From a virus: a DNA stretch of 48,251 nucleotides. Location: the IMG/VR virus record IMGVR_UViG_3300022924_000006, positions 1-48,251 of that record; one strand, written 5' to 3'. Shown one piece after another: positions 3,515 through 19,734 of this stretch. Position 1 is the first letter of the stretch; each line of letters starts with the position of its first letter. Made by a program: the position numbers and the translations under genes. The notes beneath the pieces were generated by a model. It searched no databases, had not been told where the DNA came from, and saw only the letters and a program-made list of their open reading frames with translations.

Positions 3515-4504
3515 TTAAGAGCGAAGGAATGTGATGGTGTTGGCCTCGTAGTAGTTGCCCAGTGCGGTGAAGAGCGAAGTAACGCCAGTCAGAGTCAGCT
3601 CGATGTAACCGGTAGCAGGGTAGTCGGGGTCGGTGGTATCGAGCGTAAGGATGTAAGGGGCAGCGTCGGTAGCCTGAACCACGAAGGAGGTCACAGTGAT
3701 AGGCGCGCCAGTGGTCTTGTTCTTAGCAACCACATTGGCAGCAGTAAGGGCCGCACCGTAGGTTTTACCAATGCTCACATCATTGCAGCCTTCTGCAACG
3801 AATATGGTGAACACACCAGATGCTGCGCCAGATGGGGTCAGGTTGGAAAGGAATACGTCCTTTACAGCTTGGCCCTTTGCATAGGCAAGCGGGTTAAACT
3901 TGATGCCCTGAACATCCTTCGCATCCATCATCATGACGCGGTCGTTCATTTCGGTAGCATCAGCCAAATCCAGCGTCAACCAGTAGCCTACCGCCTCGGC
4001 TTGCGTTGCGCGGGTCAGGTTAGGGATGTGGATGCGGGAAAGGTCGAAGCCGTACAGCATCTCAAGACCTGCGGCATTGTAGCCAGCCACGCCTACAAGA
4101 CGGCCATCCTTGTCAACTTCCAGATAGTCGTACTGCTCCTGCCGTCCTTCAAAACGGCGCAGCGATTGGTGGAAGCATTGACCGTTCAGGTGGCGGTACA
4201 TAGCGGAATAGTAACCATCACGGTTAGTATAGCTGCTGCCGTCCTCAAAGGTCTGTGTTACCTCTTCTTGGTCTTGTGCGGTGATGGTATTCCAGTTGCC
4301 TACTGGGTGCCAGCGGTCGGCGTATGCGGCGGCATGTACCTTACCAGCAAGAAAGGCTTTCAAGTTGACTGCGTCAGCGGCAGATATACCAGTGCCTTTA
4401 GGGATAAAGAAGCCACCTACCGCAGCCTGAAGCATACGAACGCACTTGCCGATGCCGGTGTTGCCGGATGCGGTGTCGCACGTCAAAAGGTTTAGTGTTG
4501 CCAT
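3515..4504 (-). CDS. Probable major tail tube protein
   Basis: The product is 329 aa and is the largest gene between the connector genes and the tape measure, where siphoviruses encode the tail tube. It contains aromatic and Gly-rich beta regions (GYYSAMYRHLNGQCFHQSLRRFEGR) and a C-terminal beta domain with TxPITVTSF and GYIELTLTGVT strands, reminiscent of an Ig-like extension found on many tail tube proteins. It starts 3 nt after the upstream stop. No clear sequence family is recognised, so the call rests on order and size. Confidence 0.65.
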   Translation of the reverse strand: MATLNLLTCDTASGNTGIGKCVRMLQAAVGGFFIPKGTGISAADAVNLKAFLAGKVHAAAYADRWHPVGNWNTITAQDQEEVTQTFEDGSSYTNRDGYYSAMYRHLNGQCFHQSLRRFEGRQEQYDYLEVDKDGRLVGVAGYNAAGLEMLYGFDLSRIHIPNLTRATQAEAVGYWLTLDLADATEMNDRVMMMDAKDVQGIKFNPLAYAKGQAVKDVFLSNLTPSGAASGVFTIFVAEGCNDVSIGKTYGAALTAANVVAKNKTTGAPITVTSFVVQATDAAPYILTLDTTDPDYPATGYIELTLTGVTSLFTALGNYYEANTITFLRS

Positions 4505-15244: not shown

Positions 15245-15485
15245 GGTTACAGAGAAAGCTCTGTAACCTTTTTGGCGCAATGTGCTGTATTAGTGTGATT
15301 TAATCAGGTTACAGAGAATTGAAAAAAAACACGAAAACCCTACAGGAAATAATGTGTGCGTTTTTGTGTACAGTGTGCCTATCATTTACTATAACCCTTA
15401 CGTAATTTACAATATTCTCTGTAACCCTGTAACCGTATAAAAGACAGCATTTTGTTCTGTAACTTTCTCTGTAACCTCTGTAACC
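15245..15485. repeat. Cluster of CTCTGTAACC iterons, candidate replication origin
   Basis: Six perfect copies of the 10-mer CTCTGTAACC lie here: 15245-15254 (reverse), 15259-15268, 15307-15316 (reverse), 15417-15426, 15467-15476 and 15476-15485. Two variants (CCTGTAACC at 15426-15434, TTCTGTAACT at 15455-15464) join them. The first two form a perfect hairpin with a 4-nt loop. Between copies lies an A-rich stretch (15320-15328). The cluster fills the only sizeable gap in the replication block and abuts the stop of the primase gene. Iterons plus an AT-rich stretch suggest an origin; a multi-site operator is the alternative. Confidence 0.7.
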
Positions 15486-17678
15486 TTAGAATGGCGCTTC
15501 TTCCTGTGGGCCTAGTGGTGTGCTGACTGCTGAATTCTCGCCGGTGAATGTTAGTACGCGATAAACCCAAACAGTTTTCCCATTGACCTTTTTCGGCCTG
15601 CGCTCCACTCCCATCCGTTTGAGTTCCTGCCCTAGCTTCTGCTGTATTATTTTCTGCATCGATTGCTTTTCGAGGAAGACTTTTATCTCGGTGCTGCTCC
15701 ACTCCATTGCGGGGTCGGAATCGGCAGGGAATGTCATGTAACGCTGCAAAAGTTCGTATTCGATGCTGTATTGCTCGAATGATTCAGATGCAGTGGATAG
15801 CATGGAAATATCGATGCTGGATAGTTCCCACTTGTAACCGGCTTTCCAAAGATGGTAAGCCTCCATCAGCAGGTCTATTCGGTCAACTGCATTTATCTTG
15901 TCGAAGTCTATCCCAGTAACCTCAATCGGGATTATTCGGCGGTTCCCTGTTGGGTCGTTTAGCAGGCTTGTTTCGTTGCTGGTGCCACATAGTACCGCCA
16001 GACGCTGGATATCCTCGTTGCCGCGCCCGTATGGCACACGCAGCGAGAACACTTGCTTGGATGTAAGTTCCTTTAGCCGCTGGCTGTCGCGCTTGCTCTT
16101 GCCTCCCATTTCGTCATCCATGATCAACAGCTTCTCACACATCAGGATTTCGTCGTCCTTCCCTGCATCCAGCTTGCTTTCCGCGTAGTATGGCTGCAAC
16201 TCTTTTGGGAACATTCGCCGGAATACCTCTGTTTTGCCAGTATTACCCGCGCCGGTAAATACAAGCACCAAAGGGGAGTGTTTGCCATGTGCCGCGCTAA
16301 TTAGGCCCACTAGCCACTTCTCGCCAAAGTGTTTGAGCAAGCCCTCTTTGACCTTAAACGCATTGAAGTAACGGTCGATAGTGCCAGTCGGCTCCCTGTG
16401 CTGGTAAGACTGGAAGAACTCCAACAATGGGTTAAATTCCGGTGTGGCATCAGAAAGAAGTATGCGGGTAAAAAGGTCAAAGTTTATATCGTCGAATGCT
16501 TTTTTGCAAGATAAAAACATGGTGTTGATATCACTGTCCTTCATCACACGCCCGTTGTTTTCTAATCGGCGCGATACCATATTGCGCCTGACGCTGTGGT
16601 TATAGCGCAGCCAGTTTTCCACAAGTGTTATTGTAGATTCGTCGGTTTCTACCGTAACCCCATTTTGCAATGCCTGTTCTACAATATCCTGCGATTCTTC
16701 CGGCGCGATATCCTCAAACTTCTGGAGGTTCGATACTATGCCACCTGCGGTGAGCCCCGATTTGTGCAGTACGCTAGTGGATGAAAGAATGCGATTAGTC
16801 TTTTCGGAATACATCGGCACACCGTGGAGCTTCGCATAGTAGAATATCGTGGATATGCTGGCGTATTTGTCCTTCCCTCCTGAATTGTTTTTCAGGAAGG
16901 CAGAATATTGCCGGTCGCAAACAGATGGGTCGTAGCTGCTGGCGGTGGATGAAAGGGCATGAAAATAGTGGCGACCACCTTCTCCGAACTTATCAATCAG
17001 GGCATACCCAACACTGCGCCAATCGGAATAGGATTCGCAGATGTTTTTGGGTGCCAATAATGAAATCATCTGATCGAAATCATCCTGCACATAAACCGTG
17101 CGCGGTGGTTTACGCTCTTTCTCTTTCTTTGGGTATAGTTTGAACCGCAACGCAGCAGGGTTGTGCGTGCAGTCAGGGTCATAGCTGACAAACCTTGCCC
17201 GTGACACATCTTTACCGGATGGGTCAACCACCATGCGGTATTTTTCGTGCATATATTCGGTCAGTCCGGCAAATGCTTCGGAGTGTTTTGCGGGGTCAAC
17301 CGGAACAATAGCACATAGACCACGACCCGAGCAACTCGTAAATACACTGTACACGTATGGGTCATCCCGCAACAAAGCACGGTATGATTCCACCTGATCA
17401 TTGAGATTGTCAAAGTCCAGTGAGATAAAGCCGCTGTGAGTGGTCACGCTGCCTGCTTTACGTTCAGTGGCAAAAAAACCAGATATGGTAACTGCAGGGA
17501 GGGTCTTTTTCAGTGCTTCTTTTTCTTCTTTGGATTTCGCAACCCGCACCGATAGCACAATGTCCTGCCATTGCCCCGTACGTATTCGCTCAATGAAGGT
17601 ATCGAGTTCAATATCTGTGCCCTGCTTTTGCTGCACTCTTTCGTACAGGCTTATGCGGGTTGTTGGTTTGGCTCCCAT
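15486..17678 (-). CDS. Primase-helicase (BT4734-like N-terminus, VirE/D5-type ATPase)
   Basis: The product is 730 aa. The N-terminal third is of the BT4734 type, with HSGFISLDFDNLND and the CSGRGLCAIVPVD segment, the metal- and nucleotide-binding core of this primase-polymerase-like fold. A PriCT-like helical region follows (SDWRSVGYALIDKFGEGGRHYF). The VirE-like helicase domain has Walker A TGAGNTGKTEVF, Walker B KLLIMDDEMGGK and a sensor GTSNETSLLNDPTGNRR. It would prime and unwind DNA at the phage fork. The 5' end overlaps the helicase gene by 28 nt; the 3' end abuts the iteron cluster. Confidence 0.9.
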   Translation of the reverse strand: MGAKPTTRISLYERVQQKQGTDIELDTFIERIRTGQWQDIVLSVRVAKSKEEKEALKKTLPAVTISGFFATERKAGSVTTHSGFISLDFDNLNDQVESYRALLRDDPYVYSVFTSCSGRGLCAIVPVDPAKHSEAFAGLTEYMHEKYRMVVDPSGKDVSRARFVSYDPDCTHNPAALRFKLYPKKEKERKPPRTVYVQDDFDQMISLLAPKNICESYSDWRSVGYALIDKFGEGGRHYFHALSSTASSYDPSVCDRQYSAFLKNNSGGKDKYASISTIFYYAKLHGVPMYSEKTNRILSSTSVLHKSGLTAGGIVSNLQKFEDIAPEESQDIVEQALQNGVTVETDESTITLVENWLRYNHSVRRNMVSRRLENNGRVMKDSDINTMFLSCKKAFDDINFDLFTRILLSDATPEFNPLLEFFQSYQHREPTGTIDRYFNAFKVKEGLLKHFGEKWLVGLISAAHGKHSPLVLVFTGAGNTGKTEVFRRMFPKELQPYYAESKLDAGKDDEILMCEKLLIMDDEMGGKSKRDSQRLKELTSKQVFSLRVPYGRGNEDIQRLAVLCGTSNETSLLNDPTGNRRIIPIEVTGIDFDKINAVDRIDLLMEAYHLWKAGYKWELSSIDISMLSTASESFEQYSIEYELLQRYMTFPADSDPAMEWSSTEIKVFLEKQSMQKIIQQKLGQELKRMGVERRPKKVNGKTVWVYRVLTFTGENSAVSTPLGPQEEAPF

Positions 17679-19183
17679 TTTGGAAAGTGTTTTTGTAGTT
17701 CTTTGGTGAAAGTTTCTTTAGCGCGTTCCTTATGCCAGTCATTATACCGCTTCTCCAGCAGGCGGCACCACTCTTTGCATTTGATATGTACGTTGCCCAT
17801 AAGCTCGTCGAATATCTCGTTGCTCATCTCCTTAAAATGCCGCTTGGCAGCACCTGCGATCATGGTAGGAATGCGAAAGAAGGGGTAATATTCAGCGGCC
17901 GATGTAGATTTATCGATCACTTCCTGCACATCGATGTTCTGTGAAAAAACAATCAGTTGTGCCGGTATCTCTACTTTCACTTTGACCGGATAGATATAGC
18001 CGCACTCATCTCCTTTTATCGTGATGCCCTTGCATACTTTAGCAGATGCATGGCAAAGCGCAAAGCATTCAGGGCATTCTTTAGTCGGTGCCACGCCGTC
18101 CTTTGGCTTGCTTGGGAAGTGGAATTTTTCGCGCCAATCGCGGGGATCGTCCCAATCTCCAAATTCAACTGCATTCCCCCCTAAGTCAAGAACGATAAAA
18201 TACTTTTTCAGCGGGTAAGTTCTTGCACCGCGTCCTACGGCCTGTATCCATAACGATTCTGATGTTGTCGAACGGTTGACAACAACGCACTCAATACTAG
18301 GTTCATCGAATCCAGCGGTAAGGATATTCACGTTGTTTAGTATTGCATCGGGTGTCTTGGCAAACCAATCGAGGATCTCACGCCTTTCATCCGCAGTGCA
18401 GTTGCTATCCAGATGCCGGGAGTTTAACCCGTGCTGCAAGAAAAGGTCGTTTACCTTCTGGCTGTGCTCGATCGTACAGTTGAAGATTACAGTTTTCATT
18501 CCCAATGCGTGCTTCATGTACGCAGCAAGTGTATTTTCGACATTGTGAGCTTTGGAAAATTCCTGCCCCATCGCCTTTTCGTCAAACTCCCCTTTGGATA
18601 TTTTAAGGGAACTGCGTTTTACGCTACCTGCAACATGGTAGGTGCAATTCTTAACCAACGCTCCGTGCTGTATCAGTTCGCCAATAGTGGCACCGCAAAC
18701 AATCTCTTTGAAGTGATTTTTAAGCGGGTCACGTTTGCGTGCGGATATCGGTGTTGCTGTAAACCCAATGATAAATCGGTCGCGGAATGGCTCCAGTATC
18801 TTAAGGTGATTGCCGACGTGGGCCTCATCGATGACAACCAGTCCAACATCATCAAAGTATTTCGGCTCTTTCTTGAGCTTGTTATTCAGCGTTTCAACCA
18901 TCGCAATGTAACACTCTGATTTGCGCATTCCTTTTGTCACGCGTTCGGCAATGATGCCGTACCAATCGTAAAGGGTTCTGCTTGCTTGGCTGATAAGCTC
19001 TTCCCGGTGTACCACAATCAAAACACCTTTGCCGGACTTCTCAATAAAGCGTCCGGTAATGTTGGCAAATGTGACGGTTTTCCCGCCGCCTGTACTTAGT
19101 TGGGCTACTACGTGTTTGTAGGATTGCACACCCCTTGCAATCTCGTGGGCGAAAGATTCCTGATAAGGTCTTAATTCTCGCAT
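17651..19183 (-). CDS. SF2 DEAD/DEAH-box helicase
   Basis: The product is 510 aa from MRELRPYQ, the usual start of the family; an upstream TTG at 19201 lies within the leader hairpin. Motifs in order: Q-motif RPYQ, Walker A STGGGKT, DEAH box VVIDEAH, GFTATP (motif III), TAGFDEP and QAVGRGAR (motifs V and VI). A zinc-ribbon-like insert with paired Cys (CPEC...C...C) lies near residues 370-395. UvsW/RadD-like helicases of this kind act in recombination and fork repair. The leader RNA before it can fold as a pseudoknot. Confidence 0.92.
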   Translation of the reverse strand: MRELRPYQESFAHEIARGVQSYKHVVAQLSTGGGKTVTFANITGRFIEKSGKGVLIVVHREELISQASRTLYDWYGIIAERVTKGMRKSECYIAMVETLNNKLKKEPKYFDDVGLVVIDEAHVGNHLKILEPFRDRFIIGFTATPISARKRDPLKNHFKEIVCGATIGELIQHGALVKNCTYHVAGSVKRSSLKISKGEFDEKAMGQEFSKAHNVENTLAAYMKHALGMKTVIFNCTIEHSQKVNDLFLQHGLNSRHLDSNCTADERREILDWFAKTPDAILNNVNILTAGFDEPSIECVVVNRSTTSESLWIQAVGRGARTYPLKKYFIVLDLGGNAVEFGDWDDPRDWREKFHFPSKPKDGVAPTKECPECFALCHASAKVCKGITIKGDECGYIYPVKVKVEIPAQLIVFSQNIDVQEVIDKSTSAAEYYPFFRIPTMIAGAAKRHFKEMSNEIFDELMGNVHIKCKEWCRLLEKRYNDWHKERAKETFTKELQKHFPKWEPNQQPA

Positions 19184-19193
19184 AAAAACAGTA

Positions 19194-19301
19194 ATCCCCA
19201 ACAGGTGCAGATGGGTGAGAGTAGGAATCGCGTGCAGGCTATCCGTTATCCAAATGCTCCCTGTTGGGGATAAATATTTTAGTACACTACGGCTCTCACC
19301 C
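19194..19301 (-). ncRNA. Pseudoknot-capable 5' leader of the helicase gene
   Basis: Two perfect inverted repeats are interleaved. ATCCCCAACAGG (19194-19205) pairs with CCTGTTGGGGAT (19260-19271), 12 bp. GGGTGAGAG (19213-19221) pairs with CTCTCACCC (19293-19301), 9 bp. Since they cross, the RNA can form an H-type pseudoknot or switch between two hairpins. Read in the minus-strand mRNA, connecting segments are 21, 38 and 7 nt. The structure begins a few nt after the promoter box at 19311 and ends 10 nt before the helicase ATG, so control of translation is likely. I know no named riboswitch that it matches. Confidence 0.75.
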
Positions 19302-19310
19302 CGCGTTTTG

Positions 19311-19318
19311 CAAATGTA
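19311..19318 (-). promoter_or_regulatory. -7 box upstream of the helicase leader
   Basis: TACATTTG on the minus strand matches TAnnTTTG. Transcription would begin near 19305, just ahead of the first strand of the pseudoknot. The -33 element is not obvious. It lies in the gap between the SSB-like gene and the helicase leader. Confidence 0.55.
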
Positions 19319-19323
19319 CGAAA

Positions 19324-19734
19324 TCAGAACGGAAGATCATCAGTTCCGCTGGTATTTTGCGGCACATTTTGCTGCTGTTGGGGCGCATTATTGTATCCGC
19401 CAAAACTCTGCTGGTTACCGCCGTTGCCGTATCCTGTCTGCTGCTGTTGGGCGGGTTGGTTCTGGGCGGCAGGGGAAGTGATGGCCCATGCTTGCAGGTT
19501 GACCCATGCGCTGTTTGGGTTGTCGCGCTTGATGGTGCCGCGCAGGTTAAACTTTACGGTTACCATGCTTCCCTGTTGTGGAAGCTGCGTTCCGATAAGA
19601 GCCTTGCCTAGGCCAAGCTCAATGTTCTGGGGGTATTGCTCCTGCGTTTCAACCAGAATTGATTGGTTAGTGTACTGCCCATTCTGCACTGGCTGGCCGA
19701 TGTGCTTAAGGATTCCTGTTACTTCGTAGGACAT
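19324..19734 (-). CDS. Single-stranded DNA-binding-like protein (DUF3127 type)
   Basis: The product is 136 aa. The N-terminal 85 residues form an OB-fold-like beta domain (MSYEVTGILKHIGQP, SILVETQEQYPQNIELGLG, GSMVTVKFNLRGTIKRD, WVNLQAWAI) of the DUF3127 type found in Bacteroidota. A Gln/Asn/Gly-rich linker follows, ending in DDLPF, the acidic tip used by SSBs to recruit partners. It probably coats single-stranded DNA at the phage fork and lies just before the helicase and primase genes. Confidence 0.88.
   Translation of the reverse strand: MSYEVTGILKHIGQPVQNGQYTNQSILVETQEQYPQNIELGLGKALIGTQLPQQGSMVTVKFNLRGTIKRDNPNSAWVNLQAWAITSPAAQNQPAQQQQTGYGNGGNQQSFGGYNNAPQQQQNVPQNTSGTDDLPF

Follow-up and report, generated by a model that had tools for sequence, protein, structure and literature searches.

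A predicted kissing-hairpin leader at the start of a phage replication operon

Organization of the locus

The window – the whole stretch of 48,251 bases analysed here, from an IMG/VR virus record – carries a replication operon on its minus strand. The first gene of the operon encodes an SF2 helicase (ResIII/DEAD and Helicase_C; phrog_16; 17651–19183, with its ATG at 19183–19181) and the second a primase/helicase (BT4734-like N-terminal part, PriCT_2, VapE-like; 15486–17678). Upstream of the helicase, on the same strand, is a gene for an SSB-like protein (DUF3127; phrog_4932; 19324–19734), which is predicted to lie outside the leader transcript. The spacer between the SSB stop codon and the helicase ATG measures 140 nt (19323–19184), rather than the 122 nt given in a preliminary description of this DNA.

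All elements of the leader lie on the minus strand. A –7 promoter box of the Bacteroidota type (TAnnTTTG), TACATTTG, is recognizable in the sequence at 19311–19318. Downstream of it is a small hairpin, S0, whose 5′ arm GCGG (19301–19304) and 3′ arm CCGT (19289–19292) were identified by folding; these four pairs are the best pairing for S0 in the window, where the hairpin is weak, and it is stronger in most relatives. The loop enclosed by S0 is the 5′ arm of a predicted kissing helix, S1 (GGGTGAGAG, 19293–19301). An A/U-rich linker, AGTGTACTAAAATATTT (19272–19288; the linkers of relatives are first A-rich, then U-rich), leads from S0 to the 5′ arm of the next helix, S2 (ATCCCCAACAGG, 19260–19271). 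The 3′ arm of S1 (CTCTCACCC, 19213–19221) is located within the S2 loop and precedes the 3′ arm of S2 (CCTGTTGGGGAT, 19194–19205). The arms of S1 and S2 were recognized both as repeats and by reference to relatives. Between S2 and the start codon is a U-rich stretch, TACTGTTTTT (19184–19193), brought out by a comparison of helicase leaders with A-rich control genes; it occupies the 10 nt that separate the last S2 arm from the helicase ATG. The preliminary description had reported interleaved inverted repeats of 12 and 9 bp, in the order box, four arms, 10 nt and ATG; both repeats are present where it placed them, and the coordinates bear out the order. The S0 hairpin around the first arm and the U-rich stretch after S2 had escaped it.

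Chance is an unlikely origin for these repeats, as had also been proposed. When the 140-nt spacer was shuffled 1,000 times with dinucleotide content preserved, a repeat of at least 12 bp was never obtained, a repeat of at least 9 bp appeared 18 times, and two repeats of at least 9 bp never appeared together. In an automated scan of helicase leaders the crossing of S1 and S2 in the window has a z of –6.3, and each repeat arm occurs as a single copy per strand within the window.

Elsewhere in the window two repeats of at least 9 bp fall within 140 nt only at a cluster of GGTTACAGAG repeats at about 15.2 kb. This cluster (15245–15490, minus strand) comprises direct and inverted repeats of GGTTACAGAG/TTACAGA, stretches over the last part of the primase gene and the gap behind it, and includes a terminator-like hairpin at 15245–15268. 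Clusters of a GGTTACA/TGTTACA type precede the helicase in four relatives (L072, L065, L086 and L033); such clusters are possibly iterons or regulator sites. In a further relative, L029, a 14-bp inverted repeat, ATCCGTATGCAAAT, and extra copies of TATGCAAA lie ahead of the helicase at about 4430–4500, and these look like regulator sites rather than a kissing-hairpin RNA.

Architecture and covariation among relatives

Relatives were gathered by scanning IMG/VR with the window helicase and primase, which recovered proteins of 25–65% identity. Those with a non-coding gap before the helicase hold the same interleaved pairs in different letters; where the preceding ORF runs into the helicase start, that site has no such element. 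The automated scan recovered the crossing of S1 and S2 in relatives at 34–65% helicase identity. Helicase leaders with interleaved pairs are those of L101, L018, L099, L020 (identical to L106), L103, L045 (L113), L110, L129, L026 (L292), L109, L108, L019 (L135), L145, L174, L260 and L038. Altogether at least 20 distinct relatives share the layout and differ in sequence.

The shared order runs: –7 box, S0 5′ arm, S1 5′ arm, S0 3′ arm, A/U-rich linker, S2 5′ arm, an optional hairpin S3, S1 3′ arm, S2 3′ arm, U-tract and ATG. The S0 loop is about 8–10 nt, S1 6–9 bp, S2 6–17 bp and the S2 loop about 15–60 nt. When the 5′ region was folded under the constraint that the 5′ arm of S1 stay open, S0 closed around that arm in 15 of 16 leaders; L038 lacks it, and taken singly it is weak in the window and in L113, L026, L106 and L109. 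The L038 leader (1250–1405) also showed an extra pairing, AGCTGCC/GGCAGCT, besides S1 and S2 when the descriptor scan was being tried out. The distance from TTTG of a TAnnTTTG-like box to the start of S0 has a median of 6 nt in relatives (the box was a requirement of the descriptor described below, and the helicase leaders were gathered without it), which places the 5′ end of the structure near the predicted transcript start. The position of that start is inferred from the known form of Bacteroidota promoters, and this form, together with the gene relatives, also points to Bacteroidota as the host phylum. The topology – two hairpins joined at their loops by the kissing helix S1, forming an intramolecular pseudoknot – is well supported by the sequence comparisons that follow.

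MAFFT left the stems of all 17 helicase leaders unaligned, and arm-swap tests and covariance-model alignments were used instead. In the arm-swap test of 25 leaders each arm was paired with its own partner and with the partners from other leaders. Mean duplex energies for cognate and non-cognate pairs were –12.5 and –3.4 for S1, –16.6 and –5.9 for S2, and –4.8 and –0.2 for S0, effect sizes that are inflated because the arms were picked by complementarity. The cognate arm was the best of the 25 in 24 leaders for S1, 24 for S2 and 17 for S0. Free of this bias are a five-leader alignment, the comparison of L108 with L109, the changes in L145, L174 and L260, and the S1 helices of leaders found by covariance model. 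The alignment (L108, L109, L294, L257 and L135) has 93% of its cells paired, with 15 of 36 pairs changed on both sides, and none of 500 shuffles was as good. L108 and L109 are 99% identical across the helicase DNA (1,502 of 1,515 positions) and match at only 101 of 130 positions in the leader. Between them S1 changes from GTGAGAAC/GTTCTCAC to GTGGAATC/GATTCCAC, with compensation; in S2, TAGGGC is replaced by CAGGGC, and the partner arm is altered to match. The two leaders (L108 391–516 and L109 1110–1235) are thus a hotspot of compensated change and diverge much more rapidly than the helicase gene next to them. Among L145, L174 and L260 too there are compensated changes, which affect S0 and S2.

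These data bear out the earlier proposal of a pseudoknotted RNA in a short leader: the covariation check that had been suggested yielded compensated changes in both pairings, and relatives either keep both pairings or are without the leader; none was seen to have lost one pairing uncompensated. Behind a promoter, perfect inverted repeats could instead be a pair of palindromes in duplex DNA, bound by protein and only resembling RNA structure. This is extremely improbable: the arms retain their complementarity although their sequences differ between phages, near-identical ones included, their interleaved order is fixed, and the pairings tolerate G–U. For the specific case of tandem operator palindromes, variation of sequence under persistent pairing led us to reject the candidate. 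We conclude from the comparative evidence that the leader is a real RNA element and apparently an undescribed one.

A covariance model of the nested helices S0 and S2 (R2), in which S1 is not modelled, recovered two leaders from outside its training set: L031 (E = 0.0064) and L091 (E = 0.039). Both hold a crossing S1 that the model had not seen, GTGGTAG/CTACCAC and ACTGGAAG/CTTCCAGT, respectively. The window scores E = 1e-5 under R2, of whose training set it is a member, but only E = 1.6 under R1, which was trained without it. A descriptor scan covered 4,752 –7-like boxes in 2.05 Mb and returned 29 matches at E ≤ –40, compared with none in a shuffled control (one shuffle of each). After double-counted boxes were merged there were 20 distinct elements with an ORF start 7–21 nt past S2. 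Six of the 29 matches have no ORF close downstream and are probably other palindromes, and one more is doubtful; any one match weaker than about –36 is uncertain. A pattern scan with a linker motif returned mostly chance matches, together with further leaders of the L091 type.

Other searches were negative within their scope. The region has no DNA similarity to annotated phages, and the SSB, when used to probe viral contigs, found no relatives. A covariance-model search of 297 genomes from the phylum of a Muricauda genome gave no match at E ≤ 0.01, a result that carries little weight because the filters were strict. The collection searched included few cultured relatives. Six named-phage records with related helicases were checked, and a clear leader was not found in Cellulophaga phi18:1 and phi46:1, Flavobacterium lotta8-1, Nonlabens P12024S or part of Parabacteroides PF672P1; Flavobacterium FPSV-S1 gave only a doubtful match, leaving no convincing leader among these cultured relatives. 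The FPSV-S1 element (L322 31966–32106, minus strand) is leader-like, with a 13-bp S2 and a run of seven T, and has no ORF downstream; it is possibly a free small RNA or a chance occurrence.

Genes behind the leader and comparison with known RNAs

The first genes behind the leader include the helicase, a BT4734/VapE-like primase (L074 and L030) and ORFs without assigned function. In L294 an HNH endonuclease with NUMOD4 (571–1507) stands between leader and helicase, as does a QSregVF_b-like protein of 92 aa in L257 (752–1156); over the upstream 300 nt both loci are 92–96% alike with L109, whereas their downstream genes are unlike, so that the leader resembles the boundary of a module. Leaders of the L091 type precede a 174-aa protein without a Pfam match. 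One genome, L079, holds two leaders with different S1 sequences. By these comparisons what the leader marks is the beginning of a replication operon, not the helicase, and the variety of first genes suits control at the level of the operon.

The preliminary description had favoured an autoregulatory site for the SSB-like protein or the helicase, or a ligand-binding riboswitch. Neither is supported for a leader that heads operons with such varied first genes: the same structure fronts primase, HNH endonuclease, QSregVF_b-like and unknown genes, and control of the leader by the product of its own first gene cannot hold as a general rule. For the riboswitch, moreover, Rfam gave no match and the lineages share no conserved aptamer-like core. 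Binding of the SSB-like protein to the leader is possible, and nothing in the present analysis points to it.

At the Rfam 15 gathering score no cis-regulatory RNA was found in the window or in 24 related loci, only tRNAs. This negative covers STAXI (RF01728), if retained in that release, and ssNA-helicase, if present in it. Sensitive Rfam scans of five leaders returned only sub-threshold, chance-like matches, with neither STAXI nor ssNA-helicase among their names. A hammerhead- or HDV-like ribozyme, suggested by the topology, was rejected: the linkers are of the wrong form and no Rfam ribozyme matched.

Among known systems, the replication initiators of plasmids offer one comparison. ColIb-P9 repZ and the repA genes of IncB and IncL/M plasmids have pseudoknot leaders regulated by antisense RNA; in repZ the loop of a hairpin in the leader base-pairs to a distal segment, and in pT181 a leader terminator, also under antisense RNA, gates the replication gene. 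Studies of such systems are cited in PMC10724649. The phage leader is alike in placing a loop–distal segment pairing (as in repZ) or a leader terminator (as in pT181) ahead of a replication gene. Unlike the antisense-regulated plasmid leaders, the few phage leaders inspected by eye showed no conserved antisense box. The ssNA-helicase motif is located upstream of helicase genes. It resembles the phage leader in name and position, and a relation between the two is conceivable; cmscan, with its model if present in the release, gave no match in the scanned leaders. A passage of PMC10044938 names it as an RNA family. STAXI RNAs (Rfam RF01728) form pseudoknots close to genes for SSB and other proteins that handle DNA (PMC2864571), but differ in being tandem repeats with UUCG loops in Enterobacteriales, and cmscan found no match to them in the phage leader.

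The leader of T4 gene 32 has a pseudoknot of about 28 nt followed by more than 40 nt of unstructured RNA of UUAAA type before the start, and regulates SSB itself (PMC535899). Like the T4 and RB69 gene 32 leaders, the present element is a phage mRNA leader with a pseudoknot at the 5′ end – the crossing of S1 and S2, backed by covariation and close to the predicted transcript start – in a replication-protein context. It differs in having kissing hairpins of about 120 nt and a U-tract, in standing before a helicase, primase or other gene, and in its position relative to SSB, whose gene (19324–19734) lies upstream of the leader rather than behind it. Finally, the put RNA of HK022 is a cis-acting RNA of about 70 nt and two hairpins in phage early transcripts, and put RNAs share sequence similarity (PMC9378689). 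The phage leader likewise presents two hairpins in cis on phage transcripts, but put has no described kissing helix or terminal U-tract, and the phage leaders have no shared sequence. T4 gene 32, put, STAXI and the plasmid leaders are offered only as comparisons of how such an RNA may work.

The U-tract and the putative mode of action

The 12 nt before the ATG of helicase leaders are 65% T and 18% A, compared with 32% T and 40% A at the starts of 311 other genes in these loci, which served as control; a run of five T is present in 81% of helicase leaders and in 20% of control genes. Where S2 and the ATG are at least 12 nt apart, T makes up 78% of positions beside S2 and 50% beside the ATG, which shows that the tract follows S2. 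Unbiased tail statistics come from the helicase set only (L260, from a later rescan, excepted) because descriptor-found tails were selected to be U-rich. S2 and the U-tract thus have the make-up of an intrinsic terminator, a stable hairpin with a U-tract directly behind it, which is enriched over control starts; some 10 nt separate S2 from the ATG that opens the operon. This evidence speaks for a terminator-like unit rather than an ordinary ribosome entry site.

The leader probably acts as a gate on the genes behind it. The best explanation, to which we give not quite even confidence, is a cis-acting kissing-hairpin leader at the 5′ end of the replication-operon transcript, in which S2 and the U-tract would attenuate transcription as a promoter-proximal terminator or attenuator. 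S1 would form while the nascent RNA emerges and would bring the arms of S2 together; its formation would decide whether RNA polymerase stops before the replication genes or reads through. Blocking of the S0 loop, by some factor or under some condition, would then raise expression. Several observations count against attenuation. The S2 loop of about 15–60 nt is long relative to those of classical terminator hairpins; the tract in the window, TACTGTTTTT, is imperfect and less terminator-like than those of relatives; and a short-loop terminator scan of the window did not list S2 and the U-tract. No conserved alternative (antiterminator) pairing that would support a classical two-state switch was noticed.

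The fairly tight spacing between S2 and the ATG (median 10–11 nt) would fit translational control as well, and this is the main rival: the kissing structure, some 10 nt from the ATG and inside the ribosome footprint, may limit initiation at the first gene until it is opened. A protein or the ribosome might open it, and the arrangement could amount to autogenous repression by a phage protein, as at T4 gene 32. We regard such a gate as a possible but less than likely explanation. The spacing has a median of 10 nt and a range of 7–21 nt in helicase leaders and is still short before other first genes; a 5′-terminal structure followed by a less structured stretch before the ATG is also what has been described for T4 gene 32 (PMC535899). 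However, at longer spacings the U-tract tracks S2 and not the ATG, U-rich start regions are atypical in these phages, and the variety of first genes excludes general autoregulation by the first-gene product.

A promoter-proximal RNA of two hairpins at phage operon starts, present more than once per genome in L079, also recalls HK022 put, a type of antiterminator characterized by contact with the zinc finger of the polymerase, in which case the nascent leader would bind RNA polymerase and cause it to ignore later terminators in the operon. This is improbable, since put RNAs share sequence (PMC9378689), whereas the helix sequences here are private to each leader, and a U-tract directly after the structure would be unexpected. 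The element lies mostly beside replication or recombination genes, and STAXI pseudoknots near SSB genes have been discussed as possible single-stranded DNA (PMC2864571); the fold might work in the form of single-stranded DNA, or serve as an origin element that signals replication or priming, instead of being a regulatory mRNA leader. We consider this very doubtful, given that S0 starts a few nt past a promoter box, the element ends just before an ORF, the site has no sharp switch in GC skew, and multiple copies are possible per genome.

Once released, the leader of about 120 nt might also act in trans, its kissing loop, which diversifies quickly and matches itself, serving as a private recognition code that limits operon expression from co-infecting or replicated copies of the same type. 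It would amount to copy control resembling incompatibility in phages of Bacteroidota, and it fits both the hotspot of compensated divergence between L108 and L109 and the two private S1 codes in L079; we nevertheless attach little probability to either the trans activity or the copy control that it would bring.

The leader represents an apparently undescribed class of structured RNA, with strong covariation, at the starts of replication operons in phages inferred to infect Bacteroidota, a major phylum whose phages have been little studied with regard to gene control. Its helices diverge fast in matched pairs, so that RNA searches based on sequence miss it, and this may explain the missing Rfam entry. 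If the attenuator reading is true, then replication of these phage genomes would be gated by a contact between two RNA loops.
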